Shown here: positions 4,629 through 39,513 of the stretch, piece by piece | Position numbering within the stretch: position 1 is the stretch's first letter | How the letters are laid out: every line of letters starts with the position of its first letter | Source: Bittarella massiliensis (ex Durand et al. 2017) | GTDB lineage: Bacteria > Bacillota > Clostridia > Oscillospirales > Ruminococcaceae | Length of the DNA: 64,000 bases | Direction: 5' to 3' | Assembly (NCBI RefSeq): GCF_001486165.1 | Contig: NZ_LN908977.1 | Span: 1,182,177-1,246,176, forward strand | The notes under the pieces: generated by a model | Told to the model about the DNA's origin: nothing | The model's database searches: none | What the model saw: only the letters and a program-made list of their open reading frames with translations | Made by a program: the position numbers and the translations under genes

Positions 4629-4652
4629 GGCCCCTTTTCCCAGATATATAGA

Positions 4653-4692: not shown

Positions 4693-4707
4693 ACCGGTAC
4701 CGCCGTG

Positions 4708-5511
4708 CTATCCTGCCCTCCTGGCGCGGTCCTTTTTCGCCAGGATGCGCACACTCTCACAGCCTGCAAGGCAGAGTTTTTCAATATAGCTGGCGGCATG
4801 GTCGATGGCCTTCTCCGGCTCAAAGTTGCCGCTTTCACCGGCGCATTGGCAGACATTGTCCAGCACCACTGAAATACCCCCGGCCCGCAGTCCCCAGACC
4901 CGGGCCAGCACAAAGATGAGGCTGGCCTCCATCTCGGCCGCCACCACCCCCATCCGCTTTAGGTCATCGAAGTGGCTGGCCCAACTGGACTGCCAGTAGC
5001 CGCCAAAAGAGGAGCCCGGCTTTGCATGGCGGGCGTAAAAGGTGTCAGCCGAGCGGGTGGTCCCCACATGGTACCGCTCTCCCATCCCCTCTGCCGCCTC
5101 GACACAGGCGTTCACCACTTCGTAGTTGGCGGCGGCGGGGAACTCTACCGGCGCGTAGAGCTTGGAGGCCCCATCCAGCCGGACGGCCGAGTCAAAGATG
5201 GCGATATCCCCGTTCTGAACCCAGTCCTGAAAGGTACCGCAGGTCCCGATGCGCAGAAATGTCGTGGCGCCGCACCGGGCCAACTCCTCCATGGCAATGG
5301 AGGTGGAAGGCGCGCCGATCCCCGTGCTGGCGCAGCTGATGGGCACCCCTTTGTACTCCCCGGTATAGGTAACGTACTCTCGGTTGCTCATCACTTTGGT
5401 GGCTTTGTCCCAATACTTGGCGACCATCTCCACCCGCCCCGGGTCTCCCGGAAGCAGCACGTAAGGGGCCACCTGCCCCTCCTCGATTTTCATGTGGAAT
5501 TGCTGTGACAT
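4708..5511 (-). CDS. udp: Uridine phosphorylase (nucleoside phosphorylase family I)
   Basis: The enzyme splits a nucleoside with phosphate into base and (deoxy)ribose-1-phosphate in the cytosol. The 267-residue protein has the family I pattern: YVLLPGDPGR (16-25, phosphate loop), STGIGAPSTSIAMEEL (around 61-76), FLRIGTCGTF, and the late AAEMEASLIFVLA segment whose Glu-Met-Glu binds ribose. The SIAMEEL and EMEASLIF signatures favour uridine phosphorylase over purine nucleoside phosphorylase, but a purine enzyme is not excluded. It is the second gene after a Crp/Fnr-like regulator with a 39-bp gap, so the two are probably co-transcribed. The wider region holds nucleoside uptake and hydrolase genes. 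Confidence 0.85.
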   Translation of the reverse strand: MSQQFHMKIEEGQVAPYVLLPGDPGRVEMVAKYWDKATKVMSNREYVTYTGEYKGVPISCASTGIGAPSTSIAMEELARCGATTFLRIGTCGTFQDWVQNGDIAIFDSAVRLDGASKLYAPVEFPAAANYEVVNACVEAAEGMGERYHVGTTRSADTFYARHAKPGSSFGGYWQSSWASHFDDLKRMGVVAAEMEASLIFVLARVWGLRAGGISVVLDNVCQCAGESGNFEPEKAIDHAASYIEKLCLAGCESVRILAKKDRARRAG

Positions 5512-7701: not shown

Positions 7702-8661
7702 CTATTTGGCGTAAACTTCCGCCATCTTATAAAACAGGTTGACAAACCGCTGGCGATCGGCGCCTCTGACCACCCGGCAGTTAGGGGTCTTCCCCTCTCG
7801 GTTGCGGTAATCCACCACCGTCCGGCCCATGCAGGGACCGTGGGTCTCCACCGAAACGGGCAGCCATTCATAGGTAAAGAGATCCTCGTCCAGCAGAGCG
7901 GCAATGGTCACCGCGTCCGGGGGCGAATGTTTGCCGGCAAACGGCGTTCCAGCCATGCGGGACTTTCTCTCTTCTTCACGCTTGGCCATAAACTCAAAGA
8001 AATTCTCGCTGTACCGGTTCTTCATCCCCACAAAGGTGTCGTACTCCTCGTCGGTGAGGTAGCTCATGTGGCAGGCGTCCAGGTCGATCATGGTCATGGG
8101 CACCCCCGCCTGAAAGACAATTTCCGCCGCGTGGGGGTCCGCCCAGACGTTGAACTCGCCATAGGGGGAGTGATTGCCCGTTGTCTGGGCCCCCCCCATG
8201 ATGGTCAGGTGCTTGATCAGGCCCTTGAGTTCCGGGTATTTGAGGAGGGCGATGGCGATGTTGGTCAGGGGGCCAACAGCAACAATCTGCATCTCCCCTT
8301 CGGCCTTTTTGCACTCCTCATAGATGACATCCCAGGCGGGCAAGAGGTCCAGTTCCTTATCGGTCTCGGGCAATTCCAGGCCGCCCATCCCGTTTTTCCC
8401 GTGGGCCATCTCCGCCGTCTCCTGGGGCACGATCAGCGGCTTCTCCGCTCCGGCTGCCACCCGGGTCCCACGCAGCCCCATCATCCCCGCCAAACGGCGG
8501 GCATTCTCTTTTGTGTGGCAGAGGGGGACATTCCCCGCCACTGCGGTGATGGCGCGGATCTCCACCCGGTCGCTGGAATTTGCCAGCAACATGCAGAAAG
8601 CATCGTCCACTCCCGGGTCGGTGTCAATAATCAGGGGAATCTTCTTTTCCAAATCAATCAT
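7702..8661 (-). CDS. Nucleoside hydrolase (inosine-uridine preferring type)
   Basis: This enzyme hydrolyses ribonucleosides to free base and ribose. The calcium-binding motif IIDTDPGVDDA (residues 10-20) is the hallmark of the family. ITAVAGNV, VGPLTNIAIAL, IMGGA and GEFNVWADPHAAEIVF follow in family order, and the length of 319 residues is typical. The frame continues 81 codons upstream, but those residues are low-complexity and basic. The ATG at 8661 is preferred because the calcium motif then sits near the N terminus and GAGAGGAG precedes it, although the spacing is very short. It is a paralogue of the hydrolase at 9143. Confidence 0.88.
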   Translation of the reverse strand: MIDLEKKIPLIIDTDPGVDDAFCMLLANSSDRVEIRAITAVAGNVPLCHTKENARRLAGMMGLRGTRVAAGAEKPLIVPQETAEMAHGKNGMGGLELPETDKELDLLPAWDVIYEECKKAEGEMQIVAVGPLTNIAIALLKYPELKGLIKHLTIMGGAQTTGNHSPYGEFNVWADPHAAEIVFQAGVPMTMIDLDACHMSYLTDEEYDTFVGMKNRYSENFFEFMAKREEERKSRMAGTPFAGKHSPPDAVTIAALLDEDLFTYEWLPVSVETHGPCMGRTVVDYRNREGKTPNCRVVRGADRQRFVNLFYKMAEVYAK

Positions 8662-9142
8662 ACTCCTCTCAAATGGCGGTTTATCCGCCTTGTTTTGCAG
8701 GTCGGTATAGGGGGCCTCTTCCTTCACGGAGATTCGGCGGCAGGCGCGCCCGGCGCTCCAGCTCGGCCGCTGCATCAGGATATTGAGACTGTCCTGCCCT
8801 TTGGCCTTCCCTGCTTTTCGCTCTCTTCGCAATCTTCTCTTACCGGGAAACCTTGTTGCCCGCCGTTTCCCCATAGCCCCGCCGCAGGGCATCTTTCTAG
8901 ACATCGGGCGAAATGATCTGCCCCTCCGGCTGCAAATGCAAATTCACGTTTTCTTCACAGCCATTGGCGCAATGTAGCCATTGAGGCCGTCTGCCGTCCA
9001 TCTAAGCGGCATTTAAAGGGGCTCAGTCAACACACATAGAACCAGCCTACCGGCAGTCGCTTCCTGTCCCTCTGCCTTTGCAGCGGCGAGTCTTTTTGTT
9101 CATCGCGGCCGTCCTGCCGTCAATTCTTAATGCATTTTTTGT
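8662..9142. other. Gene-free stretch between the two nucleoside hydrolases
   Basis: About 480 bp with no credible gene. The minus-strand frame of the downstream hydrolase is open through part of it but lacks a ribosome site. No riboswitch motif was recognised. Confidence 0.5.
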
Positions 9143-11122: not shown

Positions 11123-12201
11123 TACTTCGCAACCTCCTTCACAGCAATCTGTTTCTGAGCATTCTTAACGATGAGCTTGTGTTTCCACTTGGCCAGGAAC
11201 ATGTCGGCAGCAACCAGCATGATGACAACGCCCTGGATGATGAACACGAACTCGATGGGCATATCGGTAACACGGGACATGACGTCAGCACCGGTACGGA
11301 TGTATGCCAGGAACAGAGCGGACAGGGGAACCATCGCGGGGTTATAGCGAGCCAGGATGCCGACCATCAGGGCGTCGTTGCCGTAGGTCGGGGGAGCTTC
11401 CCAGGTGAACCGGGTGAACAGACCCATCATCTCGACAGAGCCGCCGATACCGGAGATGATACCGCCGATGATCTGGGAGTACATCATAACGGAGGCAACC
11501 GCGATGCCGGAGTACTTGGCGAAATCCTGGTTCTGGCCGACTGCGCGGATGGCGTAGCCCCATTTGGTTTTGTAAAGGAGCAGGTAAGCGAAGACCACGA
11601 CCAGGGCGCAGACAATGATGCCGGTGTGAATGCGGGTGCCCTTGATCAGAACGGTCAGCTTAGCGGATTTGTGGAACTCGTAAGAGGCGTTGAAGCCAGC
11701 ATCTTTGTCTTTGAAGACGTAAATCAAGAAGTAGGCGACAAAGTTGTTGACGATGTAGTTGAGCATCAGGGAAGAAACGACCTCAGAGGCCTTCCATTTC
11801 ACCTTCATGAAGGCGGGAACAGCGGCGATGGCACCGCCGATGATGGCGCCCATGAGGATGACCAGCAGGCTGTGCAGGCCCCTCGGCAGCTTCACGTAGA
11901 TGGCAAACCAGGAGCTCAAGCAGGCCGCCAGGAAGAAGGAGGACTGGGTGATCATGGAGAACTGGTTGGCCGAGTACATGATGGCAACACCGACGCCGCA
12001 GAAGGTCAAGGGGATCGCCAGCTCGATGACGTTCGCCATCCGGCGGACGGACTGCAGAGGCCCAATCAAGAAGACCTTGAAGGTCTCAAACGGGTCTTTA
12101 CTGACCAGCAGGATGAGGATAAACGCAATTACAAAAGAGATGAGAACACAGAGAACAGTTTTGAAAAAGTCAAAGCGTTTTTCAATTTGTTTACTAGTCA
12201 T
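11122..12201 (-). CDS. nupP: Nucleoside ABC transporter permease
   Basis: A 359-residue permease that pairs with NupQ in the membrane. It opens with a hydrophobic helix (VLCVLISFVIAFILILLVS), then AIPLTFCGVGVAIMYSANQF, characteristic of the YufP/NupP family. It overlaps nupO by 8 bp upstream and nupQ by 1 bp downstream, the normal tight packing for this operon. Confidence 0.92.
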   Translation of the reverse strand: MTSKQIEKRFDFFKTVLCVLISFVIAFILILLVSKDPFETFKVFLIGPLQSVRRMANVIELAIPLTFCGVGVAIMYSANQFSMITQSSFFLAACLSSWFAIYVKLPRGLHSLLVILMGAIIGGAIAAVPAFMKVKWKASEVVSSLMLNYIVNNFVAYFLIYVFKDKDAGFNASYEFHKSAKLTVLIKGTRIHTGIIVCALVVVFAYLLLYKTKWGYAIRAVGQNQDFAKYSGIAVASVMMYSQIIGGIISGIGGSVEMMGLFTRFTWEAPPTYGNDALMVGILARYNPAMVPLSALFLAYIRTGADVMSRVTDMPIEFVFIIQGVVIMLVAADMFLAKWKHKLIVKNAQKQIAVKEVAK

Positions 12202-13756
12202 AGCAGACCCTCCCGATTTCCTCGTCGGACATTCTCTTCAGGCCCAGCATATACTCACCAAGAATGAAGTCGGTGACCTGAGAGGCATCTTCAAAGTAGG
12301 CAACGATCTCGCCGCCGCACATGACAACCAAGCTGTCGCTCAATTCCAGCGCTTCGTTGAGGTCTGCGGTGATCAGCAGGACAGCCGCTCCGCCATCTCT
12401 CAGCTCGACGAGCTTTCTGCGGATGAATTCGGTGGCGCCGACGTCGATACCGCGGGTGGGCTGGTTGGCGACAATCAGGCGGGTATCGCCGGAGAACTCT
12501 CTGGCGACAACGACCTTCTGCATGTTGCCGCCGGAGAGCATCCGGACCGGCTCATTGCGGTCGCCGCATTTGACCAAGAACTCCTTGATGAGCTCGTCTA
12601 CTTCGGAGTCGAGCTTCTTGTTGTTCATCAGGGGGCCCTGCTTGTAGTCTTTCTTGTAGTAGCGGTCAGAGATGATGTTGTCCTTGACCGACAGGTTCTC
12701 GGAGCAGCCGTAGGTCATGCGGTCCTCGGAGATGTGGGCGACGCCCATCTCGCGGATCTGGCGGATGGACTTGCCGCGAATGGACTGGCCGTCGATGGTG
12801 ATCTCGCCGTTGTTCAGCGGCAGCAGGCCGGTGATGATCTCGGAGATCTCGCGCTGGCCGTTGCCCTCAACGCCGGCAATGCCGACGATCTCGCCCTTGC
12901 GGACGCTGGCACTGAAGCCTTTGACAATGTCGCGGCCCTCTTCATCTTTGTATGTAAGATCGCGGATCTTCAGCACGGTCTCTGTGGGCTGTGCTTTGGT
13001 CTTGTCGATCTTCAGCATGACGTCGCGGCCGACCATCATCCGGGAGATATCCTGCTGGGTCACGTCTGCCACAATGGCGGTGCCCACGGATTTGCCCAGG
13101 CGCAGGACGGTCAGGCGGTCGCAGAGCTCTTTGACCTCGTCCAGGTGGTGAGAGATGAAGATGATCGTATGGCCCAGCTCTTTCAGGTGGCGCAGCTGCA
13201 CGAACAGCTCGGCGGTCTCCTGCGGGGTCAGAACAGCGGTGGGCTCGTCGAGGATCAGGATCTCGGCGCCGCGGATCAGAGCTTTGAGGATCTCAACTTT
13301 CTGCTTGTTGCCGACAGCCAGCTCCTCGACCTTTCTGGTGACGTCCAGCTTAAAGCCGTACTTTTCACAGGCTTCCTGGGCGACCTTGTTGGCCTGCGCC
13401 ATGTTCAGCGGCCCGAACTTGCCGAACTTTTTGGGCTCCATGCCCAAAATCAGGTTTTCAGCGATGGTCAAAGAAGGGCAGAGCATAAAGTGCTGCCAAA
13501 CCATGCCTACCCCAAGGGCGATGGCCTCTAGGGGGTTGTTGATTTTGACCTCTTCTCCCTTGATGACAATGCGGCCTTCTTCGGGGGTTTCACTACCGAA
13601 GAGGACCTTCATCAAGGTGGACTTGCCAGCGCCGTTCTCGCCACACAGCGCGTGGATCTCGCCCTTATTAACGGACAATGTTACGTCTTTGTTGGCCACA
13701 AAGCCATTGGCGTACACTTTGGTAATGTTGTCCATTAATAGAATTTCTTCTGGCAT
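12194..13756 (-). CDS. nupO: Nucleoside ABC transporter ATP-binding protein
   Basis: A 520-residue tandem ATPase that powers nucleoside import. The first cassette has Walker A GENGAGKSTLMK (about 39-50), a signature region with VGNKQKVEILKAL (where LSGG is replaced by LAVGN) and Walker B ILILDEPTAVLTP. The second cassette has a degenerate Walker A (GVEGNGQ) and a strong LSGGNMQKV signature with LIVANQPTRGID. This double-cassette asymmetry is the norm for CUT2-like and BMP-linked importers. GAGGTG precedes the ATG at 13756. A structured leader candidate lies upstream (13850-13905). Confidence 0.94.
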   Translation of the reverse strand: MPEEILLMDNITKVYANGFVANKDVTLSVNKGEIHALCGENGAGKSTLMKVLFGSETPEEGRIVIKGEEVKINNPLEAIALGVGMVWQHFMLCPSLTIAENLILGMEPKKFGKFGPLNMAQANKVAQEACEKYGFKLDVTRKVEELAVGNKQKVEILKALIRGAEILILDEPTAVLTPQETAELFVQLRHLKELGHTIIFISHHLDEVKELCDRLTVLRLGKSVGTAIVADVTQQDISRMMVGRDVMLKIDKTKAQPTETVLKIRDLTYKDEEGRDIVKGFSASVRKGEIVGIAGVEGNGQREISEIITGLLPLNNGEITIDGQSIRGKSIRQIREMGVAHISEDRMTYGCSENLSVKDNIISDRYYKKDYKQGPLMNNKKLDSEVDELIKEFLVKCGDRNEPVRMLSGGNMQKVVVAREFSGDTRLIVANQPTRGIDVGATEFIRRKLVELRDGGAAVLLITADLNEALELSDSLVVMCGGEIVAYFEDASQVTDFILGEYMLGLKRMSDEEIGRVCYD

Positions 13757-14337
13757 ACAATCACCTCGTACTTACCTTTAAACGGCCTGCCTTTTGACAG
13801 GACATTTGCAGTAGATTTTCGTGATTTCGGGCGCTCGGGACACCCAAAGATTAGTACTGAAAACCCCGCGGCCGCACCATACGCCGCACGGCACCCAATA
13901 CTAATTTCACTATCATAAATTCTAACCAATTTGCTTGGAAATGTAAACAGGGAATGAAGAAAACCTCTTTATAGCACATATATGGCTTTTGGATTTTATG
14001 CAAATTGTCAATTTCTGAATTTTTGCTAAGAGGAACACTCTAAAATAACTAGATAAAATTGCCATAAACATTGAAAACAAACTGAACTTAATTTGTACAA
14101 CTGTATAGATGATTGTGTTTTTGCGGTGGTCCCCTCTTGTCAAATATAACAGTTTCCTCATTTTTACAGTTCGTTCACAAGTTTTGTCAATTCCGTCTGT
14201 TTTCCCCTTTTCTCCCCCTCATGCAAAGGGATGCTCTATCCTGCCCACAACTTGCACTTTCTCCATTTAGAAATGTTGCTTCTCAAGAAAGCAAGCGCTT
14301 TTTTGTTTTCGATGGGAGCCTGACAAACCTCTTTTGC
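13757..14337. other. Intergenic leader region of nupO
   Basis: About 580 bp, AT-rich in the distal part, holding the nupO 5' region. I searched by eye for purine-riboswitch consensus blocks and found none. The only structure found is listed separately. Confidence 0.5.
13850..13905 (-). promoter_or_regulatory. Candidate structured leader of nupO
   Basis: ATTAGTA (13850-13856) pairs with TACTAAT (13899-13905), enclosing a GC-rich interior in which GCGGC (13868-13872) pairs with GCCGC (13883-13887). The element lies 94 bp before the nupO start. It matches no riboswitch class I recognise; function as a leader is inference. Confidence 0.4.
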
Positions 14338-28407: not shown

Positions 28408-29216
28408 GAGTAGATGCCCTCCTTTCCAGAACTGTCGAACTGGTTAAAGAGGCTCATGCACAGCAGCACGATCACCATCAGCACCAGCGAGATGGCGGAG
28501 CCCATGTGGGGGTTGTAGCTGGCGCCGATGAACTGCAGCTCGATGATGTCACCGATAAGGCTGTTGCCGCCGCCCCCCAGCATCCGGGAGATGATAAAGG
28601 TGGAGATGGCCGGCACGAACACCATGGTGACGCCGGTCATCACCCCGGGCAGGCTCAGGGGGAAGACCACCCGGCGAAAGCTCTGAAACCAGTTGGCGCC
28701 CAGGTCCTGGGCCGCCTCCAGGGTGGTGTTCTCGATCTTGACCATGATGGAGTGCAGCGGCAGGATCATAAAGGGAAGGTAGTTGTAGACCATCCCCAGC
28801 ACCACCGCGCCGGAGGTGTTGATCATCTGTACCGGGCCCAGGCCGAAAAAGCCCAGAAATTTGTTGATGAGGCCGCCGTTTTCCAGCAGGGTCATCCAGG
28901 CGTAGGTGCGCAGCAGGAAGTTCATCCACATGGGGAGCATCACCAGCATGATGAAGGTCCGCTGGACCGAGGCCCGGGTGCGGGAGAGGAAGAAGGCCAG
29001 GGGGTATGCGATCAGCAGGCAGATGACCGTGGCCACCGCCGCCAGCCAGATGGAGCGCAGCAGCACCCCGGTGTACTGGCCTACCTGGGAGATGTTTTCA
29101 ATGGTGAAGGCCCCGTCTTGCGTGGTGAAGGCAAAGTAGAGCACCAGCCCCACCGGGACGACGATGAAGACCGCCATCCAAATCAGATACGGGAGGGAGG
29201 GCAGCTTTGACTTCAT
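28404..29216 (-). CDS. potB: Spermidine/putrescine ABC transporter permease
   Basis: A 270-residue PotB-type permease with six predicted spans, starting at the ATG at 29216 that overlaps the potA stop by four bases. The EAA loop is [20 protein letters not shown] (about 161-180). PotB and PotC form the heterodimeric channel driven by PotA. Confidence 0.94.
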
Positions 29217-30262
29217 TTCTCCCCCTCCATCTTCCGCATGATGTGGATGTCGTCGGGGGTGAGGGTCATCCCCACCACGGCGCCCACCTGCTCGCTCTGG
29301 GTGGAGTGGACCTTCCAGTGGTAGCCCATGGAGTCGATGCCGATCTCGAAGTGTACCCCCTTAAAGATGATGGATTCCACCACCCCGGTGATCTGGCCGG
29401 AAATCTGGGGGACGATCTTCACGTCCTCCGGGCGGACCACCACGTCCACCTGCTCGTCCTTATCAAAGCCCTTGTCCACGCAGACAAACTCCGCGCCGCC
29501 AAACTCCACCAGGAAGTCCCGCCGCATGATGCCCGGCAAGATGTTCGACTCGCCGATGAAGTTGGCCACAAAGGCGTTGATGGGCTCGTTGTAGATATCT
29601 TCGGGAGAGCCGATCTGCTGAATGACCCCGTCGTTCATCACCACCACCGTGTCGCTCATGGTGAGGGCCTCTTCCTGGTCGTGGGTCACGTAGACAAAGG
29701 TGATCTCCAAACTCTTCTGGATCCGCTTGAGTTCCACCTGCATCCCCTTGCGCAGTTTCAGGTCCAGGGCGCCCAGGGGCTCGTCCAATAAGAGGACGCG
29801 GGGGCGCAGCACCAGGGCGCGGGCAATCGCCACCCGTTGCTGCTGTCCGCCCGACAGCTGGTCGATGCTGCGCTTCTCGTAGCCCGAGAGGTTGACCAGG
29901 GCCAGCATCTCCTGCACCCGGCTGGCGATCTCCTGCTCCGGCAGCTTTTGGATGCGCAGCCCGAACGCCACATTCTCAAAGACATTGAGATGGGCAAAGA
30001 GGGCATAGCGCTGAAAGACGGTGTTCACCTGCCGCTTGTGGGGCGGCAGGGCCTTGATGTCTTTGCCATCAAAAAGGACCTCTCCTGCTGTCGGCTCCAC
30101 AAACCCGCCGATGACGCGGAGGGTGGTGGTTTTGCCGCAGCCGGATGGCCCTAGCAATGTCACAAACTCCTTGTCGCCGATATCCAGGTCCATCCCGTCG
30201 ATGACGCGTTCGTCGTCGTAGTCGACGACAAGGTTTTTGATTTCAATTATATTGTTTTTCAT
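29213..30262 (-). CDS. potA: Spermidine/putrescine ABC transporter ATP-binding protein
   Basis: The ATPase of the importer, 349 residues. Walker A is [12 protein letters not shown] (about 38-49), the signature [15 protein letters not shown] (about 135-149), Walker [13 protein letters not shown] and the switch His in [12 protein letters not shown]. The C-terminal third is a TOBE regulatory domain. First gene of the operon; promoter at 30423-30451 gives a leader of about 155 nt. Confidence 0.96.
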
Positions 30263-30389
30263 CTCTTTATCACATCCCCTTTGCGGTTTTTTGCAGGCCG
30301 CCTCCCGGCTTGCGCGCGACAGCTTTTGACTCCACCCCGCAAAAGGTTTTTACCGGATTGCCCCGGTTTCTGTGGGCATACGCTGCCAT

Positions 30390-30602: not shown

Positions 30603-30679
30603 CCGGGTGTAGCGCAGTTTGGTAGCGCGCTTGAATGGGGTTCAAGAGGCCGCAGGTTCGACTCCTGTCACTCGGACCA
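30603..30679 (+). tRNA. tRNA-Pro (anticodon GGG)
   Basis: A full cloverleaf is visible: acceptor CCGGGTG pairs with CACTCGG, D stem GCGC/GCGC, anticodon stem CTTGA/TCAAG enclosing loop ATGGGGT, and T arm GCAGG-TTCGACT-CCTGT. The anticodon is GGG at loop positions 34-36 with G37, as expected for proline. CCA is encoded. It reads CCC and CCU codons. The 3' end borders an AT-rich insert, consistent with tRNA genes as integration sites. Confidence 0.97.
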
Positions 30680-30685
30680 AAAAAA

Positions 30686-30715
30686 GACCGCCGACAAAAA
30701 TCGGCGGTCTTTTTT
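30686..30715 (+). terminator. Intrinsic terminator of tRNA-Pro
   Basis: GACCGCCGA / TCGGCGGTC with a short A-rich loop and a T run, directly after the tRNA. Confidence 0.92.
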
Positions 30716-30816
30716 ATTTTTCCGACTCAAAATAGATAGGATTTGAACTCAAAGAGCTATTTTATATCGACGAGCACCTATTTTTATGTTAATATTGTAA
30801 AATAGGAGTGATAAAG

Positions 30817-32115
30817 ATGCATACTACAGAAGTATTTGGTATTTCTACTCGTGTTAAGCCGGCTTCCTATGTCGATCGAAATAACCTAGATGCTGTTATT
30901 CAGCGACTTCTAAAACACGATACCCATATTGCCTTAAGGGGAGCTTCTAAGTGTGGAAAGTCTTGGCTCCGTCAGCACACCATACCAGAGAATAACACCG
31001 TTCAATGCAGACTGAATAAAACGGTCCAAGATATTTACATTGAGGCACTGGCGAATTTAGGTGTATGTTTAGAGATAGAACAGACACAATCAACTAGGAT
31101 CAATGGAAACCTAAATGCCACTGGTGAAGCTGGACTAAAAATTATTGCCAAGGTTGCAGCCGAACTGGGTTTTACTGTTGAGTACTCTAGCAAAAAGTCG
31201 ATAAAGGATCTGAGATGCGATTTAAGCAACTTAAGATTCATCGCAGAATTGATAAAAGAGTCTGGGAAAAAGCTGGTGATTGAAGATTTTCATTATCTTT
31301 CCTTTGATGAAAGAAGAAAACTGGCATTTGATTTAAAAACCCTTTGGGACTTAGAGTGTTATGTTGTAGTAGTAGGTGTCTGGACACAAACAAATTTGAT
31401 CACCTTCTTAAACCCCGATTTATCCGGTAGGATTGAAGAAGTCAGTATAAGCTGGTCAAATGAAGACCTGGAAAAAGTGATCAATAAGGGATCTGACTGT
31501 TTAAACATTTCAATATCCAAAGAAATCAAAAAATCTTTAATTCAGGATTCAGTAAATAATGTTGGAATCTTGCAGAAACTTCTCTTGGATTTAGTTGAGG
31601 GGATGGGAATAGAAGATCGATGTCAAAAACTTCAAGAGATTAATAGTATGGACTTATATCATCGCACAACGCTAAATTATGCAAACCAATTGGATGGTCT
31701 TTACCAAGAGTTTGCCAAAATAGTATCTGCCGGTATCCGCCGGCGAAAAGATGCCACTGGAATTTATGCGTACACTATGAAGGCGATTGTTGAAGCATCA
31801 GACCAAAAGCTTCTATCTGGTTTTTCTGTCGATGAGATATTTGACATAACTCATATTTGGCAAGAACGAATTTCCAAACAAAATTTAAGAACCATTCTAG
31901 GAAAGCTTGAAGAACTACAGGTGGATGAAGGTCGACGTCGTTTGGTTGTTGGATATGATGAATCCACGAACTGTGTATATATTGTAGATCATCAACTCCT
32001 ATTTTATCGAAAGCACCACTCAATGGATTGGCCTTGGGAACGACTGGCTGTGGAATCAATTGCTATCGAAAAGAATCAAATTATTCTTGAAGGCTTTAAC
32101 GACGATTGCATTTAA
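30817..32115 (+). CDS. AT-rich P-loop ATPase (AAA/STAND-like), function unknown
   Basis: A 432-residue protein whose base composition (AT-rich, with AAA/GAA/TTA codons) contrasts sharply with both flanks, a sign of horizontal transfer. Walker A is GASKCGKS (42-49) and Walker B is LVIEDFHYL (153-161, Glu156/Asp157); YVVVVGVWTQTNLI resembles a sensor-1 strand, and DLSGRIEEVSISWSNEDLEKVI has the arginine pattern of an Orc/Cdc6-like lid. The last 130 residues (with VDEIFDITHIWQERISKQNLR) look like a winged-helix or wHTH module. ATG at 30817 is preferred over an earlier GTG because TAGGAG precedes it. No integrase, transposase or second cargo gene is beside it. A role in defence or mobile-element replication is inference only. 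Confidence 0.88.
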   Translation: MHTTEVFGISTRVKPASYVDRNNLDAVIQRLLKHDTHIALRGASKCGKSWLRQHTIPENNTVQCRLNKTVQDIYIEALANLGVCLEIEQTQSTRINGNLNATGEAGLKIIAKVAAELGFTVEYSSKKSIKDLRCDLSNLRFIAELIKESGKKLVIEDFHYLSFDERRKLAFDLKTLWDLECYVVVVGVWTQTNLITFLNPDLSGRIEEVSISWSNEDLEKVINKGSDCLNISISKEIKKSLIQDSVNNVGILQKLLLDLVEGMGIEDRCQKLQEINSMDLYHRTTLNYANQLDGLYQEFAKIVSAGIRRRKDATGIYAYTMKAIVEASDQKLLSGFSVDEIFDITHIWQERISKQNLRTILGKLEELQVDEGRRRLVVGYDESTNCVYIVDHQLLFYRKHHSMDWPWERLAVESIAIEKNQIILEGFNDDCI

Positions 32116-32481: not shown

Positions 32482-33876
32482 TTACAGCCCAGCGCCATCT
32501 GCTCCGTAAGCTGCCTGTTCCGCGGTGAATCCTTCATATTTGAGCTGGTTGATCAGCTCCTGCCGGGAATAGGAGAAAATCGTTAGGTAGGACTTGGCCT
32601 TTTTGACCGCCTGTTCATTCCAGTTTGCCCCACAGTTGTTCACCCCATAAGCCGTCTGCTCGTCGGTGAACCCCTCGTATTTGAGCTGATGGGTCAACCC
32701 CGATTGGGAAAAGGCCGCCGTATTTAGATAGGATTTGGCCTTCTTCAGCGCCTGCGCGTTCCAATCCGCCCCACAGTTGTTCACCCCGTAGGCCGTCTGC
32801 TCGTCGGTGAATCCCTCGTACTGCAGCTGATGGGTCAACCCCGGTTTGGAAAAAGCCGCTGTATTTAGGTAGGACTTGGCTTTTTTCAGCGCCTGCGCAT
32901 TCCAGTCCGCCCCGCAGTGGTCCGCGCCGTAGACCGCGTCCTCGTGGGAAAATTTCTCGTACTCCAACTGCTTGACCAGCCCCTGGTGGGAGAAGGCTGC
33001 GGAGCCCAGATAGGACTTGGCCCTGCTGAGGGCCTTTTTCTGTTCCGCCGTGGCCCCGCCCATCAAGGTGCCACCGCTCTGAGAAGCGCTGCTCTGAGCG
33101 CTGTTGCTGGGTTTTGAGCTGCTCTGCCCCGCACCGCTCTGGGTCGAGCCGCTTTGGCCAGAACTGCTCGCGCCTGCATGGCTGCCCCCACCCTGATTGC
33201 CGGCAGTCCCCTGAGAACTGCTGGCCGTACCGCCGCCTGCCGCAGCGCTGGAAGAGGGCTTTGACGATCCGCCGCTTTCCCCGCCACCGGATACCTCCCC
33301 CCAGCTGATCCCTTGGCTGCTGAAACGAAAGCTGTCGGTGATGGGGGTGATCTGGGCGCTCATCTCCTCTTTGAGGGCGTCGCCCATGGTGAAGATGGCA
33401 AAATACATGGCCTCTTTGTCCGGGCCGGCGAAGATATACGCCTCTATGGTGTAGACCCCGTAGGGGTCAACCCGCTCGGTGTAATTGACCTTCAGCGCCT
33501 CCACCCCCGCCAGCTTGACCCGCTCTTTTTTGTTCAGGTGAAAGTCGACCGCTCCCTTTTCCATCCCCTCCAAGACCGCGTCATACACCCCATAGAGTGC
33601 CTCGGTGTCGGCGGCAGAGGAGACATCTCGGTCGGAGTAAAAGAGGAAGAAATAGCCCGCCTTATTCTCCTGGGTGGGGTAGTGGTAGCACCTCGTGTCG
33701 TCCTTCACCCTCCGCCAGTCGGCGGGCACTTTATAGGAAAGCTTCTCCAGCTGCACACTCTCCATCTGTGGGGAGGAGCTCTCTTTTTTCTCCTCTTCCC
33801 TCTTGGGGATCGTTTTGCAGCCCGTCAGCTGCAGACACAGGGCCAGCGCGAGGATGGCCCCAACCGCTCTCTTCAT
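32482..33876 (-). CDS. Ltp-repeat lipoprotein with N-terminal PsbP-like domain
   Basis: A 464-residue surface lipoprotein. Signal peptide MKRAVGAILALALCLQLTGC ends in a lipobox at Cys20; ATG at 33876 follows GGAGG. Residues about 45-180 match the paralogous lipoprotein upstream (VPADW...HYPT and FHLNKKERVKLAG). A Ser/Gly/Gln-rich linker (about 185-275) leads to four repeats of 44-49 residues, each with a KAKSYL-x-x-AAFS motif, a QLxYEGFT segment and AYGxxNCGADWN. This is the repeat of the host cell surface-exposed (Ltp) lipoprotein family, known from the phage TP-J34 protein that blocks superinfecting phage DNA entry; many bacteria carry it without a proven role. It follows the paralogue by 50 bp in one operon. 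Confidence 0.88.
   Translation of the reverse strand: MKRAVGAILALALCLQLTGCKTIPKREEEKKESSSPQMESVQLEKLSYKVPADWRRVKDDTRCYHYPTQENKAGYFFLFYSDRDVSSAADTEALYGVYDAVLEGMEKGAVDFHLNKKERVKLAGVEALKVNYTERVDPYGVYTIEAYIFAGPDKEAMYFAIFTMGDALKEEMSAQITPITDSFRFSSQGISWGEVSGGGESGGSSKPSSSAAAGGGTASSSQGTAGNQGGGSHAGASSSGQSGSTQSGAGQSSSKPSNSAQSSASQSGGTLMGGATAEQKKALSRAKSYLGSAAFSHQGLVKQLEYEKFSHEDAVYGADHCGADWNAQALKKAKSYLNTAAFSKPGLTHQLQYEGFTDEQTAYGVNNCGADWNAQALKKAKSYLNTAAFSQSGLTHQLKYEGFTDEQTAYGVNNCGANWNEQAVKKAKSYLTIFSYSRQELINQLKYEGFTAEQAAYGADGAGL
32485..33045 (-). repeat. Four tandem Ltp-repeat units (about 141 bp each)
   Basis: Units lie at 32899-33045, 32758-32898, 32617-32757 and 32485-32616 in the order of translation. 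The two central ones are nearly identical at DNA level, including silent positions, so they come from a recent duplication; the outer two have diverged. Confidence 0.9.
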
Positions 33877-33926
33877 ATCAACGCCTCCAAACACTCATCT
33901 GTGGGCCCATCTGGCTGCCCGGTTTC

Positions 33927-34487
33927 TCACTTGTGAAACTGCACGCTGTTGACAATGGGGGCGATGGCTGGATTCATGGTCTTGGCCAGCTCGTCGTTCA
34001 TGATGAAAATCAGAAAGTACATGATGTCGCTGTCCACATCGGCCAACAGGTAGACCACGGTGGTGTAGGGCCCCCGCCCGCCAATGGTCTGGGTGTAGGT
34101 GACTTTCATGGCCAATTTGCCCGCCAGATCTACATACTCCTTTTTGTCCAGTCGAAAATTGTCCGCGCTGCCCTGGACCCCCTGAAAGGCCAGCTCGTAC
34201 CCCAATTTGAGGGCATTTTCGCTGGTGGCGACCGAGAGGTCCGCCTCCATATAGTTGACGTTGAGCAGCCCCGCCGTCTTGTCGGAAGAGGGGTAGTGCC
34301 AGTAGCCCGTCTCCCCCGCCTGCTGGACCCACTCCTCAGGGACCTGGTAGGTGATGCCCTGCAGGGACACCGTCTTCATCGCCACCTTCGACGCGCTCTC
34401 CCCGCCCTTCTGGGGCTTCCCTTTGCCGCACCCAGTCAGCTGCAGGGCCAGACACAGCGCCATGACGACTGCCAAACACCTTTTCAT
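33927..34487 (-). CDS. Lipoprotein with PsbP-like domain
   Basis: A 186-residue lipoprotein with signal peptide MKRCLAVVMALCLALQLTGC (lipobox at Cys20) and a single compact domain. Segments such as YQVPEEWVQQ, YWHYPSSD, FRLDKKEYVDLAG and PYTTVVYLLADVDSDIMYFL align with residues 45-180 of the Ltp-repeat protein encoded just downstream, so the pair arose by duplication and one copy gained the repeats. GGAGGAG precedes the ATG at 34487. Function unknown; the domain type resembles PsbP/DUF1795-like folds (inference). Confidence 0.85.
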   Translation of the reverse strand: MKRCLAVVMALCLALQLTGCGKGKPQKGGESASKVAMKTVSLQGITYQVPEEWVQQAGETGYWHYPSSDKTAGLLNVNYMEADLSVATSENALKLGYELAFQGVQGSADNFRLDKKEYVDLAGKLAMKVTYTQTIGGRGPYTTVVYLLADVDSDIMYFLIFIMNDELAKTMNPAIAPIVNSVQFHK

Positions 34488-34741: not shown

Positions 34742-37700
34742 TCACCGGGAGGAGGGGGAGCTGTCTGTTCTGCGATTGCGGCGGGGAAGAAGGGTGAGAC
34801 CTCCCAGGCCGGCAGCCAGGGCCGCCAGGAGGAGGACCATCCCATCCCCCTTCTCGCCGGTGGTGGGACTGCCGCCGTCCGGCTCTCCCCCGCCGGGGGT
34901 GGGCGCGGGATCGGGGGCAGGGGCGGGGGTAGGCGTGGGATCGGGCTTGGGGATGGGGTCGGGCTCCTCTGTGCCGGCGGCAACCAAGGCCTTAATGGCA
35001 AAGAGGGCGCCCGAGTCGTTGCCGTAGTAGGCGACGCCGCTGGCCCCGTCGATGACCACATTGGAGAGGCAGTAGTTCTGGCTCCCCTCCTGGGGGGTGT
35101 AGACGGTGGCGAGGGTCAGCTGCCCATCTTTGAGGGTCGCCCGGTAGAGGGCGCCCGGGTTGGCGTTTTGGGTGAACCAGGCGCTCACCTCTTCCCCGTC
35201 AACGGTGAGGGTGGGGGTGTTGCCTGCGGCCGCCAGGGCCAGTTGGGTGATGGGGGCCAGGGTGGCGCTGTCAAACACCGCCAGGTAGCCGTCGGCGAAG
35301 GTCCCGCCGGCCACAAACACCTTGCCCTCCGCCACCGCCGGGCTGGCATTGGTGCCGGCTGGGAGGGCGGCCTTGGCCGAGAGGGTGGGGACGCCGCCCT
35401 CACTCAGGGTGACGCGGCAGAGCTGGCCGTCTTTGGTGGCACAGTAGAGGGCCCCGCCCGATTGGACAATGGCGCTGCGCACCCCGCCGCCCAGGTCGAG
35501 GGTCCCCTTGACGGCACCGGTCTTGGCGTCGGCCGAGACCAGCACGCCGTCGTCCCCGGCAAAGGCGATGAAGTCGCCCACCATGGTGGCTCCCGCCCCG
35601 TAGTAGCCGGGGCCGTCCACGCCGTAGGTCCAGAGGGGGGCCACCTCCTCATCGCTGCGGCGGCCGTCGGTATCCGCCGCCGAAAAGGCGGCAAAGTACC
35701 CCTTCAACCGGCTGCCGGAAGAGCCGTTGGTAAAGCCGGTGTAGAAGACGCCGTCGCGGTAGGTGATGGTGGAGAGCGCCTGCATCCCGCTGACGCCCTC
35801 GGTCAAAAAGAGGGATTCGAGGGTAGAGGCGCTAAAGACCTGTACCCGCCCGTCCCCCAGGGGGACAAAGAGTTTGCCCTCGCCGTAGGCGAGATAGGCG
35901 TAGTAGCCGTTCGGGGCCGCCAGGGCTGCCGCCTTTTCCACCTCGCCGGTGGAGGCGTTTAGCAGCTGCACCTGGTTGTCCCGCACCAGGGCCAACTTGC
36001 CGTCCACCAGGATGGGGGAACCGGCATAGCCGCCGCCCCAGAGGGGGTCGACTGCGGTGCAGGTCTGCTGCCAGAGCAGCGAGCTGCTGCCGGCGGGCTT
36101 GAGGGAGGGGAGGACGGCGTTGTTGCCGACATCCCCCTGGTGCATCGGCCAGGCGGAGGGGAGAGCGGGCTGAACCGGGCCGGGCACCGGGGTGCGTTTG
36201 AGGACCAGATTGAGGGTGTTGGTCTGCCCCTGCACGGTGACGGCGAGGACGACCGGGGTCTCCTTCCCCGTCAGGGGGATGGTGACACGCACCGGGTTTC
36301 CCTTGGCCTCGGCGGCCAGGGAGACCGCCTGCGCCCCCACCTCTTTGCCGTTTACGGTGACGACGGCGGCGGGGTCCTTGACATTCAGGGTGAGGGTCAC
36401 CTCGTCCTTGGCCTCGTCCACCGGGATGGTGTAGCTGCTCTCCCCCGGCTGCAACGCGATGTCGAGCCCCTCGACCGAGAGGGCGGCGACCTCGTTGGTA
36501 AAGGCGGGGATGGTCAGCGCGACCTGGGCGGTGATGCCGGGGACGGCCGCTGTGCCGTCGGCGTTCTTCACCTTCTCATAGCGCAGGCTCTTCAGAGGGG
36601 TGGAGAGGGTGACCTGCGCGTCGGGCTCGCCAAAGTCGGGCCGCTTGAGCAGCTCAAAGAGGTTGGAGCCGCCGTAACCGCCGGTGGTGGTGCCGATGTA
36701 GCCGTAGGGAGAGGCGCTCCAGCTGCCCAGCTCCACCCCCACGTTGCCGGGGCAGGAACTGTTTTTCAGGGTGTAGACAAAGGCGTCGCCCTCCCTGTGC
36801 ATCCGGTAGAAGGAGACATGACCGTTTGCCCGGTCCCACCCCAGGTTGTGGGTGATGAAGTCAGGGCTCTCGTTTGCGCCCTTGATGCCGTCAAAGAGGG
36901 CGGCCTCGCAGGCCTTCATCTCGGCGTTGGCGGCGTCCACCTCGGCCTGGGTGATCCCCTTGATGGTGACCGGGAAGGTCTTGGTGGCGCTGACCCCCTG
37001 GTAGGTGAGGGTCAATTTGAGGTTGGTCTGGGTGTCGGGCGCGCCGACGCTGCGGTAGACATTGCAGCGCAGATAGCTGGCGGTGAGGTAGTTGGTCCCA
37101 TCCGCCGCCGCGCTGTCGGTGGACCACTGGTAACTCATGGCCCTGTTCTCGGGGGTGTCGGCGATCATCCCCGCCTTGATCAGGTCGCTGACATCCTTGA
37201 GCTGGATGTCGAATTCCAGCGCCTGGGGGTCGATTTCGGTCAGCCCCAGGCTGCTCATCTCGGTAAAGCCGTCGAGGGTGACCCCCGCCAGCGCCGCATC
37301 GACGGCCGTCTGGGCGGCGTCCTGCTCCTGCTGGGTGACGGCGGGGACCATGAGGGGAATCTCCACCGTCCGCTTGGTGACCGAGCCAGAGGTGTAACTG
37401 TCCTTGTCGATGGTGAGGGTCAGCTTGACGGTGGCGTCGGGCTCGCCGTAGGCGGGCCGGTTGACCTTCACCGAGCTGGAGCCGTAGGAGGGCGGATCGA
37501 TAACAGCGGTGTTGTCACTCGCCCACTTCAGCGCGATGTCGCTGTACCCGCTCACCCCGTAGGAGGAGAGGGTCTTTTGCAGTTTCAGCGGGCCCACCAC
37601 GTGGTCGGCGCCGGCATTGTCCAGGCCGATGAGGGCAAATCCGTCCGCCCCGCCAAAGAGGGCGGCGGCGCCGTCGATCTGCTCCTGGGTGGTCTTAACA

Positions 37701-39109
37701 TGCACTGCCACGGTGACCAAAACGGTCTTGTCGTAAGAGACGCCGGGGACGCTCGCCTTGGAGAAGCGGAAGACGACCTCTCCCTGCACCTTCTCATCCG
37801 TATAGGCAATTCTGCCGTTTTCGGCGCCCGCGGCAGCAGAGATGTTGGCGTTGCCGCTGGAGACCACCTCGACTGAAATGTCGGTGCGGTCCATCTTGTC
37901 CTGCCAGACCTTCTCGATGCTGGTGCCGCTGGCGTAGGAGTATTCGCTCACATAGAGGCCGGTCACTTGGTGGAGGCTCACCCCGTCCACCGCGGCCTGG
38001 ATCTCGGCGCGCACCTCGTCGGCGGTGACGGCCTTGACGGTGACCGAAAAGACCTTGGTGGCGCTCGCGTTGCCGCGGGAGATGGTGGCGGTGAGGGTGA
38101 GGGTCACATCCGTCCCGTCGGTGGGGCGGGTGAGCTTGCCGTTGTCGCCGAGGACCGCTTGATTGTCGCTCTGCCAGGCGATGCTGGTCCCGGCGCTGCC
38201 GGCGGTGGGCAGGGCCAAATCGCCCTTCACCGCCGAGAGGTCGCCCAGATCCAGCTCGCCTTTGGCCTTGGCCACCGCCTCGGCGTCGGTGTAGGTCACC
38301 TCGGTGACCGTCAGCTCGGCATAGGGGCGGCTGATGTCGATGGCCGGATTCCCCTTGCTGTCGTACCAACTGCTCTTGCGGACAGCGGAGAGGGTGTACC
38401 GGCCCGCCTCGTCAAAGGTGAGGGAGGCGACGCCGTTTTCGTCGGTGGTGCCCACCTCGGCCTCTGCCCCGCCTTCTTTAGAGGCGAGGATGGTGGCCCC
38501 CTTGACCGGCGACGCCGCTGCGGCGTTCATCCCCGCGGCGCCCATGAGGGTGACCGAGACGGGCTCGCCGGTGTTGGCCGTCAGGCTGTCACCGGCAAAA
38601 TAGGTGTAGAGGCTGCCGGCGTATGCACTGTACCAGAGGTCGTATAGGGTGACCTCGTCGCCATTTGCCAGGGGGCAGCCGTCGATGAGGTAGCCGGTGC
38701 CGTCCTTTGCGGGATAGGCGTCGTTGACCATGTACATGAAATAGACATCGGTCGGGGCGTCGGCGTTGGTGTCCAAAAAGTCCTGCAAAAAGCCGGGAGT
38801 GGCGTCGATAACGTCCGCCGGGTCCAGGCCGTTGTCCACGCAGTACTGCGCCAGCAGGTGCAGGGGGGTGTAAAAACCGGGGTCCTTACCCGCCCAGGCC
38901 GTGAGGCCGTATTCGGGCAGGGACTTGTAGGTGTCGGGCAGGGTGACGGCCGTCGGCTCAACCGCCGTAAAGCCGTACCCCTCGACCCGCAGGGTGGTGC
39001 TGATCCCGGCGCCGCCCCGAGGGGCGCCGGCCGCGGCGTAGGCCGGGGTCAGTAGGGCGCCCAGCGCCAGACAGAGCGCCAGGACCAAGCTTGTCAGTCG
39101 TTTTGTCAT
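34742..39109 (-). CDS. Large cell-wall surface protein with transcobalamin-like domain, Ig-like repeats and beta-propeller
   Basis: A 1455-residue secreted protein. ATG at 39109 follows AGGAGA; the signal peptide is MTKRLTSLVLALCLALGALL to AYA. Residues about 35-180 resemble DUF4430, the transcobalamin C-terminal-like domain (TPLHLLAQYC, YFMYMVND and NGDEVTLYDLWYSAYAG). Five or so degenerate Ig-like (aBig_2-type) repeats follow (for example SIAWQSDNQAVLG, ALKWASDNTAV), then a cadherin-like strand set and a PQQ-type propeller (about 1080-1400: GSPILVDGKLALVRDNQVQL, GKLFVPLGDGRVQVFSAS). The tail GSPTTGEKGDG, a hydrophobic span and RRNRR form a sortase-like sorting signal. A cobalamin riboswitch and terminator lie upstream. 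Cobalamin or corrinoid binding at the surface is inferred. Confidence 0.88.
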   Translation of the reverse strand: MTKRLTSLVLALCLALGALLTPAYAAAGAPRGGAGISTTLRVEGYGFTAVEPTAVTLPDTYKSLPEYGLTAWAGKDPGFYTPLHLLAQYCVDNGLDPADVIDATPGFLQDFLDTNADAPTDVYFMYMVNDAYPAKDGTGYLIDGCPLANGDEVTLYDLWYSAYAGSLYTYFAGDSLTANTGEPVSVTLMGAAGMNAAAASPVKGATILASKEGGAEAEVGTTDENGVASLTFDEAGRYTLSAVRKSSWYDSKGNPAIDISRPYAELTVTEVTYTDAEAVAKAKGELDLGDLSAVKGDLALPTAGSAGTSIAWQSDNQAVLGDNGKLTRPTDGTDVTLTLTATISRGNASATKVFSVTVKAVTADEVRAEIQAAVDGVSLHQVTGLYVSEYSYASGTSIEKVWQDKMDRTDISVEVVSSGNANISAAAGAENGRIAYTDEKVQGEVVFRFSKASVPGVSYDKTVLVTVAVHVKTTQEQIDGAAALFGGADGFALIGLDNAGADHVVGPLKLQKTLSSYGVSGYSDIALKWASDNTAVIDPPSYGSSSVKVNRPAYGEPDATVKLTLTIDKDSYTSGSVTKRTVEIPLMVPAVTQQEQDAAQTAVDAALAGVTLDGFTEMSSLGLTEIDPQALEFDIQLKDVSDLIKAGMIADTPENRAMSYQWSTDSAAADGTNYLTASYLRCNVYRSVGAPDTQTNLKLTLTYQGVSATKTFPVTIKGITQAEVDAANAEMKACEAALFDGIKGANESPDFITHNLGWDRANGHVSFYRMHREGDAFVYTLKNSSCPGNVGVELGSWSASPYGYIGTTTGGYGGSNLFELLKRPDFGEPDAQVTLSTPLKSLRYEKVKNADGTAAVPGITAQVALTIPAFTNEVAALSVEGLDIALQPGESSYTIPVDEAKDEVTLTLNVKDPAAVVTVNGKEVGAQAVSLAAEAKGNPVRVTIPLTGKETPVVLAVTVQGQTNTLNLVLKRTPVPGPVQPALPSAWPMHQGDVGNNAVLPSLKPAGSSSLLWQQTCTAVDPLWGGGYAGSPILVDGKLALVRDNQVQLLNASTGEVEKAAALAAPNGYYAYLAYGEGKLFVPLGDGRVQVFSASTLESLFLTEGVSGMQALSTITYRDGVFYTGFTNGSSGSRLKGYFAAFSAADTDGRRSDEEVAPLWTYGVDGPGYYGAGATMVGDFIAFAGDDGVLVSADAKTGAVKGTLDLGGGVRSAIVQSGGALYCATKDGQLCRVTLSEGGVPTLSAKAALPAGTNASPAVAEGKVFVAGGTFADGYLAVFDSATLAPITQLALAAAGNTPTLTVDGEEVSAWFTQNANPGALYRATLKDGQLTLATVYTPQEGSQNYCLSNVVIDGASGVAYYGNDSGALFAIKALVAAGTEEPDPIPKPDPTPTPAPAPDPAPTPGGGEPDGGSPTTGEKGDGMVLLLAALAAGLGGLTLLPRRNRRTDSSPSSR

Positions 39110-39142
39110 TGTCTCTCTCCTTTTTTTGTTCCCTTCGGGGGA

Positions 39143-39177
39143 AAAAGGAAAGGGCCCGCCGAAACTCGGCGGGCCCC
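39143..39177 (-). terminator. Intrinsic terminator between riboswitch and coding region
   Basis: GGGCCCGCCGA and TCGGCGGGCCC form a perfect 11-bp stem with a three-base loop; TTTCCTTTTT follows on the minus strand, 34 bp before the start codon. This is the expression platform expected for a transcription-terminating riboswitch. Confidence 0.85.
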
Positions 39178-39259
39178 AAAGAGCGTACAAACATGATTGG
39201 GGGGCCAGGACACGCCCCCGCGCACTATTGTACCGTCTTTTCCTCACCGAAAGATAGGT

Positions 39260-39478
39260 TCCAATGCGCCGGCGGATATCCTGACTTGAGGCTGCGGGCG
39301 GCCTGTTGGCCGCCACTCCTCCCCCCGCCCTTCCCAGCGCGCGCCCAGAACGCACGCCAGTGGTTGCGGGGTTCGTCCCCTCTCACAGTAGAGTGAGCTG
39401 CTGCGGATTTGCACCGCATTCCCCGTCCGGCGGCAGGGCTTTTGCCCGCCGCCTCCACAGCCAAAAGGCTGTACCGAC
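39260..39478 (-). promoter_or_regulatory. Cobalamin riboswitch
   Basis: The minus strand shows the class core GGAATGCGGTGCAAATCCGC (39423-39402 region), CCCGCAACCACTG-type sequence further 3', and the B12 box AAGTCAGGATATCCGCC (39286-39270), in the proper order and spacing. Adenosylcobalamin-type ligands would favour the terminator at 39143-39177 and reduce expression of the surface protein. The boundaries are approximate. Confidence 0.93.
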
Positions 39479-39484
39479 ACCCCT

Positions 39485-39513
39485 ATGGTACAGGCATTTT
39501 TTGGAATTGTCAA
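39485..39513 (-). promoter_or_regulatory. Promoter of the cobalamin-riboswitch transcript
   Basis: Minus-strand TTGACA (39513-39508) and TACCAT (39490-39485) with a 17-bp spacer; start would be near 39478, at the 5' edge of the riboswitch. Confidence 0.75.

Follow-up and report, generated by a model that had tools for sequence, protein, structure and literature searches.

The window analysed here is a 64,000-nucleotide stretch of the Bittarella massiliensis genome (contig NZ_LN908977.1, positions 1,182,177 to 1,246,176; assembly GCF_001486165.1). On its minus strand, from 39513 down to 34742, lie in order a promoter-like sequence, a cobalamin riboswitch, an intrinsic terminator with a 12-pair stem and a single frame of 1455 codons. 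The predicted product of this frame, which we call P0001, is a large surface protein, and its probable part in the capture of corrinoids (B12) is the subject of this work.

The locus and the architecture of P0001

An earlier note on this DNA, made from the letters alone, had read a cobalamin riboswitch at this position. A covariance search agrees: RF00174 matches over its full length at 81.3 bits, the gathering cut-off being 31.5 bits, and an expression platform adjoins the aptamer. Such a score, together with the terminator, rules out a chance match. After the terminator stem the strand reads TTCCTTTTTC. Three terminator-like sites were returned by the scan, against 1.4 in shuffles; the other two are weak and lie at 39673-39656. 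Within the folded leader, about 20 kcal/mol would be needed to force the 3' arm of the terminator open. The promoter-like sequence has the form TTGACA-17-TACCAT, of which 0.3 are expected by chance in shuffles of the 801-base region. It lies close to the aptamer, and a start about 7 nt downstream would fall inside the outer P1 stem.

The rest of the layout described in the note also held, namely a consensus promoter and a terminator ahead of one secreted protein with a signal-peptide-like start, and no transporter gene. Profiles of the energy-coupling factor (ECF) transporter proteins EcfT and EcfS had no match in the window. Apart from the 1455-codon gene, no frame of the window matched these two profiles or those of DUF4430, the toroid and the propeller. 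The only EcfA-like ATPases in the window are at 12197-13771 and 29216-30349.

Table 1. Features of the P0001 locus, with positions in the window and the evidence for each (Ig, immunoglobulin)
Feature	Position	Strand	Evidence
Sigma-70-like promoter, TTGACA-N17-TACCAT	39485..39513	-	Consensus scan only, 10/12 matches
Cobalamin riboswitch aptamer, RF00174	39254..39493	-	81.3 bits over the whole model (1-189 of 189), E 1.9e-18
Intrinsic terminator of the expression platform	39151..39177	-	12-pair stem, 10 pairs G-C, U-rich tail
P0001 coding sequence, 1455 aa, predicted secreted surface protein	34742..39109	-	ATG at 39109, stop 34742, GGAG upstream
Putative signal peptide, residues 1 to ~27	39029..39109	-	Sequence reading: MTKR, hydrophobic core, AYAA
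Probable divergent DUF4430 / SLBB transcobalamin-like domain, residues 34-172	38594..39010	-	hhalign against DUF4430 domains; AlphaFold2 strand order
Ig/prealbumin-like domain, residues 167-273	38291..38611	-	CarboxypepD_reg 25.0 bits, below its gathering score of 32.3; E 2.5e-5
Three aBig_2 stretches, residues 279 to ~880	36470..38275	-	Pfam aBig_2 122.6 bits, best 279-360; outer limit set by reading
Cadherin-like beta-sandwich, residues 886-965	36215..36454	-	22.3 bits, just under cut-off 24.2
BamB/PQQ_2-type beta-propeller, residues 980-1375	34985..36172	-	Isolated domain scores 44.9 bits with PQQ_2
LPXTG-like sorting signal (SPTTG, hydrophobic stretch, RRNRR tail), residues 1414-1455	34745..34870	-	TIGR01167 11.2 bits

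The Ig/prealbumin-like domain aligns with Ig domains at a VIA Z of about 8. The propeller passes the PQQ_2 gathering score in the whole protein (34.4 bits, cut-off 27.6) as well as in isolation, and a proline-rich linker joins it to the SPTTG tail. A search of PDB sequences with P0001 returned the Ig-type region of an arabinanase (E 2.8e-13) and weak rows that include BamB. The Pfam scan of P0001 found neither DUF4465 nor a signalling domain, and the toroid profile matched nothing in the window, P0001 included. P0001 was considered as a transcobalamin and rejected, because the alpha/alpha toroid is absent. The sortase-type tail proposed in the note stands in part: the SPTTG motif, the hydrophobic stretch and RRNRR are in place and the host genome has one sortase match (48.5 bits), but the LPXTG model TIGR01167 gives only 11.2 bits, under its cut-off of 15.9.

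The two conserved domains and their relatives

We compared a profile of the window's N-terminal domain and three homologues with the DUF4430 domains of 16 operon proteins. hhalign gave 90.3% with an E value of 1.5e-6 that applies to that single comparison, whereas 100 column-shuffled DUF4430 profiles reached at most 9.0% and the reversed profile 0.7%. Against the EcfT, EcfA, EcfS, toroid and propeller profiles the same domain gave at most 0.2% each. The Pfam model of DUF4430 touches 3 of 23 aligned members of the N-terminal family, with a best E of 0.042. Since the profile comparison matches though Pfam does not, we regard this region as probably a very divergent transcobalamin-type (SLBB) domain, homologous to DUF4430. 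It is filed as a probable divergent homologue and not as a Pfam member, and the DUF4430-like domain of the earlier note is kept in this weaker form. The tie appears to run via the window-type domain, because a shorter N-terminal family, which the window-type profile matches at 58.7%, gives just 4.4% against DUF4430; its own link to DUF4430 was not seen. A single DUF4430 sequence from one locus (L053, where the order behind an RF00174 riboswitch is DUF4430 at 55 bits, CarboxypepD-like, toroid) gave 0.8% against the window's N-terminal profile, which counts against homology.

An AlphaFold2 model of residues 30-275 (pLDDT 77, pTM 0.74) places strand-strand-helices-strand-strand in the DUF4430-like part, at medium confidence (ten-residue blocks with pLDDT 53-83). 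Fold searches with this model returned Ig-domain proteins, and no transcobalamin was among the matches listed, nearly all of which cover the Ig-like half. A PDB sequence search with the N-terminal profile returned scaffoldin and other rows only, at E 0.005 or worse.

Relatives were sought in 197 genomes of the order, the host's own included. The N-terminal region was matched in 20 of them, at 20 loci besides that of the window. The gene counts at these and the riboswitch loci below rest on six-frame scans, because the greedy gene caller picks antisense frames in GC-rich DNA. A riboswitch of the cobalamin clan scores over the cut-off, within about 0.5 kb upstream, at 11 of the 20 loci (L010, L011, L012, L013, L021, L023, L024, L025, L027 with AdoCbl-II, and one locus each in G064 and G060). 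Three more (L019, L028, L029) have one just under the cut-off, and no cobalamin riboswitch was seen upstream of the remaining six. EcfT is found at 15 of the 20 loci, 14 with both profiles on one strand plus L031. The five without it comprise L035 and L039, which have no related gene, L044 and L045, which are transporter-less, and L049, which meets a contig end. Many of the loci follow one order: riboswitch, anchored protein of the N-terminal type, toroid+DUF4430 protein, EcfT, double EcfA, EcfS. The names EcfT, EcfA and EcfS are based on sequence reading and similarity; in Pfam searches with one relative's gene each, EcfT is a CbiQ member (36.9 bits), EcfA matches ABC_tran and EcfS is ECF-type. 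S-layer homology (SLH) domains stand at the C-terminal end of L044 and L047 (Pfam SLH) and, by reading, of L038, L087, L112, L123 and L170. Surface attachment thus seems swapped among relatives, with SLH ends in place of sortase-like tails.

Both the N-terminal domain and the propeller are found together in homologues from G168 and from the Ruminococcaceae bacteria UBA5397 and UBA5450 (metagenome-assembled genomes). RF00174 lies upstream (62.9, 60.8 and 58.9 bits) and DUF4430, EcfT and EcfA genes follow. The three are very alike and therefore represent little more than one lineage.

The propeller profile was built from six sequences (window, G168, UBA5397, G037, G118 and contig C7 of the host). 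At E<=1e-10 it matches six places in five of the 197 genomes, five of these places being in the profile itself. The only new match is G101, in which the protein runs propeller, N-terminal-type domain and (by reading) S-layer domains, so that the pair occurs in the reverse order to that of the window gene; DUF4430, EcfT, EcfA and EcfS genes come after it. All six propellers have a cobalamin riboswitch ahead, five over the RF00174 cut-off and one, that of G101, under it at 26.3 bits. EcfT adjoins five of the six propeller genes, the window gene being the sole exception. The window propeller shares 49-51% identity with its relatives from the B12-ECF operons of G168 and UBA5397, and has in common with its family a W..H/F.G motif near the start and a QNYC...NGTLYY.NDSG.LFAI-like end. 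In G037 and G118 the propeller makes up most of the operon-head protein. The earlier note had supposed that the propeller and the Ig repeats present the binding domain away from the wall. This degree of conservation, the bulk of some operon-head proteins and the pairing with the N-terminal-type domain in either order make a mere spacer unlikely, and a spacer-only propeller was rejected. The Ig repeats retain the presenting role as a proposed extendable stalk; the stalk with its aBig_2 repeats is absent from the aligned G168 homologue.

We also surveyed the order from the riboswitch side. RF00174 matches occur in 122 of the 197 genomes, in 113 of them over the cut-off. About every other match listed was taken by hand, by rank, before the neighbours were viewed, with the window's own row left out, which gave 74 regions; nine shorter than 2 kb were dropped and 65 kept. 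A toroid, DUF4430, N-terminal-type or propeller frame starts within 2 kb of 20 of these 65 riboswitches, or of 16 of 61 without the four loci used for profile training (L082, L099, L118, L119). Within the first 1.8 kb the count is 18 of 65, compared with 0 of 30 for thiamine riboswitches (Fisher p 4.5e-4), and 14 of 61 against 0 of 30 without the training loci (p 0.002). The thiamine control is smaller, with 30 loci scanned on both strands about 1.5 kb to either side where the contig allows. EcfT or EcfS is present in the region at 10 of the 20 positive loci, and two regions are too short to tell. The other eight (L053, L071, L112, L113, L115, L119, L123, L124) have neither in 9 kb, so the transporter-less arrangement of the window gene recurs. 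The gene is therefore not the lone oddity among B12-riboswitch targets that the note had suggested, as 20 of 65 sampled riboswitches precede such surface proteins and excerpts of PMC1796856 predicted B12 scavenging for the class in 2007. The largest member seen is at L124 (G055:C1:184616-193716), with 2534 codons, a DUF4430 match of 52.7 bits and a cobalamin riboswitch ahead.

The toroid profile, searched against PDB sequences, found squalene-hopene cyclases and their relatives and no transcobalamin by sequence. We modelled the riboswitch-linked toroid+DUF4430 protein of L112 with AlphaFold2 (pLDDT 70.8, pTM 0.59), and its first 15 Foldseek matches are all transcobalamin, intrinsic factor or haptocorrin (E 2.4e-8 to 4.3e-6, TM about 0.5). 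In VIA, ranks 1-12 are cobalamin carriers (Z 16.7-18.3 over 330-351 residues, rmsd 4.8-5.5). The next rows are terpene cyclases at Z 16.0, which tie with the lower carriers by Z and align over the toroid only (about 240 residues). The model points to members of the class that have the complete transcobalamin architecture. This is not extended to P0001, which has no toroid.

B12 genes of the host and the proposed role of P0001

The host genome (2.8 Mb, 9 contigs, 99% complete) carries three RF00174 sites: that of the window, one of 112 bits before an ECF operon and one of 85.2 bits before nrdD. The ECF operon, on contig C7, begins with a gene for a propeller protein, whose propeller is related to the window's with 26% identity; the operon further encodes a DUF4430 protein (64.4 bits), EcfT, EcfA and an S component. 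The host EcfT matches the relatives' EcfT strongly, one of which is the CbiQ member. The host also encodes a methionine synthase (MetH) that has B12 domains, and a B12-binding protein of 160 residues that by reading resembles the small subunit of glutamate mutase. Our search for biosynthesis covered one family, CobQ/CbiA (GATase_3), and its only match in the host is PdxT-type (SNO, 162.9 bits). Since B12 enzymes are present and the only match in this family is of the PdxT type, the host probably uses corrinoids but does not make them.

Some further observations concern these host loci. The S-component gene of the ECF operon (L006, G000:C7:333000-352000) is interrupted at about 8548-8680 by an adapter-like stretch and a duplicated fragment of EcfT. 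We take the stretch to be Nextera mosaic-end sequence, and the interruption looks like an assembly chimera of the record. The third site (C8:261562-261753; L007, G000:C8:250000-265000) precedes nrdD (NRDD 644.6 bits), whose product, a class III ribonucleotide reductase, provides a B12-independent, anaerobic route. At L008 (G000:C7:590000-598000), positions 4101-5041 encode a 133-residue DUF4430 protein (30 bits) and an ECF S-type membrane protein, beside genes that read as uroporphyrinogen/siroheme.

Taken together, we consider it probable that P0001 is a wall-tethered corrinoid (B12) capture protein of a Gram-positive transcobalamin-like/ECF uptake system. The scavenging proposed in the earlier note gains from the relatives in B12-riboswitch ECF operons, and from a host that has B12 enzymes and no CobQ/CbiA. 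From the sequence we infer corrinoid binding, wall linkage and repression by B12. Low B12 would allow transcription past the terminator, and P0001 would be exported and then probably linked to the wall by sortase. The conserved working ends would be the DUF4430-like domain at the N-terminus and the BamB-type propeller towards the C-terminus, which are paired by comparison with the relatives and may bind the corrinoid, while the Ig-like repeats between them would serve as an extendable stalk that sets their reach. The corrinoid could then be handed to a membrane complex of DUF4430 protein, EcfT, EcfA and EcfS from the separate riboswitch-controlled operon on contig C7. A bolder version is that in this lineage a propeller came to stand in for the toroid beside the transcobalamin-type beta-grasp domain, giving a Gram-positive B12 trap that arose independently of Bacteroides BtuG, with the window gene as a wall-tethered, transporter-free antenna on a long Ig stalk that would gather corrinoid well away from the membrane and serve a separate ECF complex. 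We put this forward as a tentative idea that is rather doubtful as a whole.

Several results weigh against the capture role. The locus has no transporter gene, and P0001 lacks the alpha/alpha toroid from which much of the B12 cavity of transcobalamin comes. Pfam finds no DUF4430 (PF14478) in P0001 even at E<=10, the profile match to DUF4430 is short, spanning 28 columns around YMVN...NGDEV, and the fold of the DUF4430-like domain could not be matched by itself, because the Ig-like half filled the fold-search lists. The LPXTG model stays under its cut-off. At E<=0.001, Pfam matches nothing in the EcfT of the host operon. Of two S components examined, one matches riboflavin-type and general ECF models and weakly a folate-type one, the second has no NCBIfam match, and neither is assigned to a B12 family. 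Finally, 13 other genomes of the same family gave no match, either with the N-terminal query at E<=0.001 or with the propeller profile at E<=1e-10, so the window gene is patchily distributed.

The S components would also suit a P0001 whose ligand is not intact B12 but something else from the corrinoid economy (cobinamide, a lower-ligand base, cobalt), or a different tetrapyrrole such as haem. Excerpts of PMC1796856 likewise leave room for precursors of B12 beside B12 itself and, in archaea, for another metabolite. We nevertheless think a different ligand unlikely: a cobalamin riboswitch stands ahead of much of the class, the L112 protein matches cobalamin carriers above all else, and a host that has no CobQ/CbiA would gain little from early precursors. 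P0001 might instead be a surface adhesin or polysaccharide binder that is B12-repressed for other reasons, its propeller and Ig repeats binding glycans. The aBig_2 domain does occur in an extracellular arabinanase, PQQ-type propellers are found in many exported proteins, and a tether to polysaccharide is suggested for such extra domains in excerpts of PMC1796856. However, the propeller and the N-terminal domain head B12-ECF operons and are at none of the 30 thiamine-riboswitch loci, which makes an adhesin improbable.

A sensor that signals corrinoid availability at the surface and does not feed uptake was named as an option in the first reading, and would agree with the missing transporter gene. 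With importers beside its relatives and no signalling domain in the protein, we consider this role very unlikely. The second, transporter-less copy could also be a decaying, functionless duplicate of an operon-head gene, given that the host ECF operon already has a propeller gene. Decay is hard to credit here, as the 1455-codon frame, the riboswitch and the terminator are intact and the propeller keeps its conserved motifs and its identity to two relatives.

Relation to known B12-capture systems

Capture of B12 by a wall-tethered protein has a precedent in prediction. Excerpts of a 2007 study of the SLBB superfamily (PMC1796856) describe transcobalamin-like proteins that low-GC Gram-positives secrete. 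Several of these carry anchor motifs; they are fused to toroid, Ig or propeller domains and encoded in operons with a CbiO-like ATPase and a CbiQ-like protein. The same excerpts note that the hosts usually lack key enzymes of B12 synthesis, and propose both B12 scavenging and an origin of animal transcobalamin in low-GC Gram-positives. P0001 resembles this system in its predicted secretion (a signal peptide by reading), in its combination of an SLBB-type domain with a propeller and Ig repeats, and in a host without CobQ/CbiA. It differs in a domain beyond Pfam detection, a long Ig stalk and the missing toroid. The window gene also stands alone; CbiO- and CbiQ-like genes are in the host's own operon, and EcfT is at 15 of 20 relatives. 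Because no such genes are at the locus, we treat the window gene as an orphan variant and not a full member. With the class already predicted in those excerpts, P0001 is therefore a new variant and not a new class. The word 'riboswitch' does not occur in PMC1796856, whereas the window gene is riboswitch-controlled. A search of open-licence PubMed Central, preprints left out, found no experimental B12-binding test of these bacterial proteins, which is no proof of absence.

The vertebrate carriers transcobalamin, intrinsic factor and haptocorrin are matched by L112 over both domains. P0001 keeps a probable DUF4430-type domain, but it has a BamB-type propeller and no toroid. Bacteroides BtuG has a propeller fold. 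Like P0001 in the role proposed here, it is a surface-exposed protein for B12 capture (excerpts of PMC6143338 and PMC10404256), but it is a surface lipoprotein that works with the outer-membrane transporter BtuB, whereas the P0001 propeller is of the PQQ_2/BamB type. In a PDB sequence search with the propeller (E<=10), BtuG is not among the best 60 of 61 matches. PF16819, a propeller family named beside DUF4465 genes in excerpts of PMC13398666, does not match P0001 at E<=1 and touches one of the six family members weakly, at E 0.12. The DUF4465 proteins BtuH and BtuJ of Bacteroidota (excerpts of PMC8941943 and PMC13398666) are also accessory proteins of surface B12 capture in riboswitch-regulated loci; DUF4465 is a beta-jellyroll, however, and P0001 has no match to it. 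ECF-CbrT, as excerpted from PMC6593275, shares the ECF type of B12 import. P0001 would be an extracellular accessory and not a transporter subunit, and no S component of the operons is assigned to CbrT here.

Many gut bacteria depend on B12 that they cannot make, and finding the B12 transport systems of many of them is named an open problem in excerpts of a 2019 gut-genome survey (PMC6593275). Surface B12 capture is established in Bacteroides, while Gram-positives have the 2007 prediction. That prediction is now tied to a regulator by the 20 of 65 sampled cobalamin riboswitches of the order that front such surface proteins. Compact test objects are at hand in the toroid+DUF4430 proteins and in a protein of two domains, possibly a propeller joined to one half of transcobalamin. 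If such proteins bind B12, the competition between bacterial and host carriers and the bacterial origin of animal transcobalamin proposed in the excerpts of PMC1796856 would become directly testable.

Elsewhere in the window, an ordinary glmS ribozyme (86.7 bits) lies at 76-239. Two lipoprotein-like genes at 32482-34487 have related N-terminal halves, and the C-terminal repeats of the first are Ltp-type by reading. A tRNA gene followed by a 435-residue ATPase-like frame, at 30603-32115, is possibly the edge of an integrated element.

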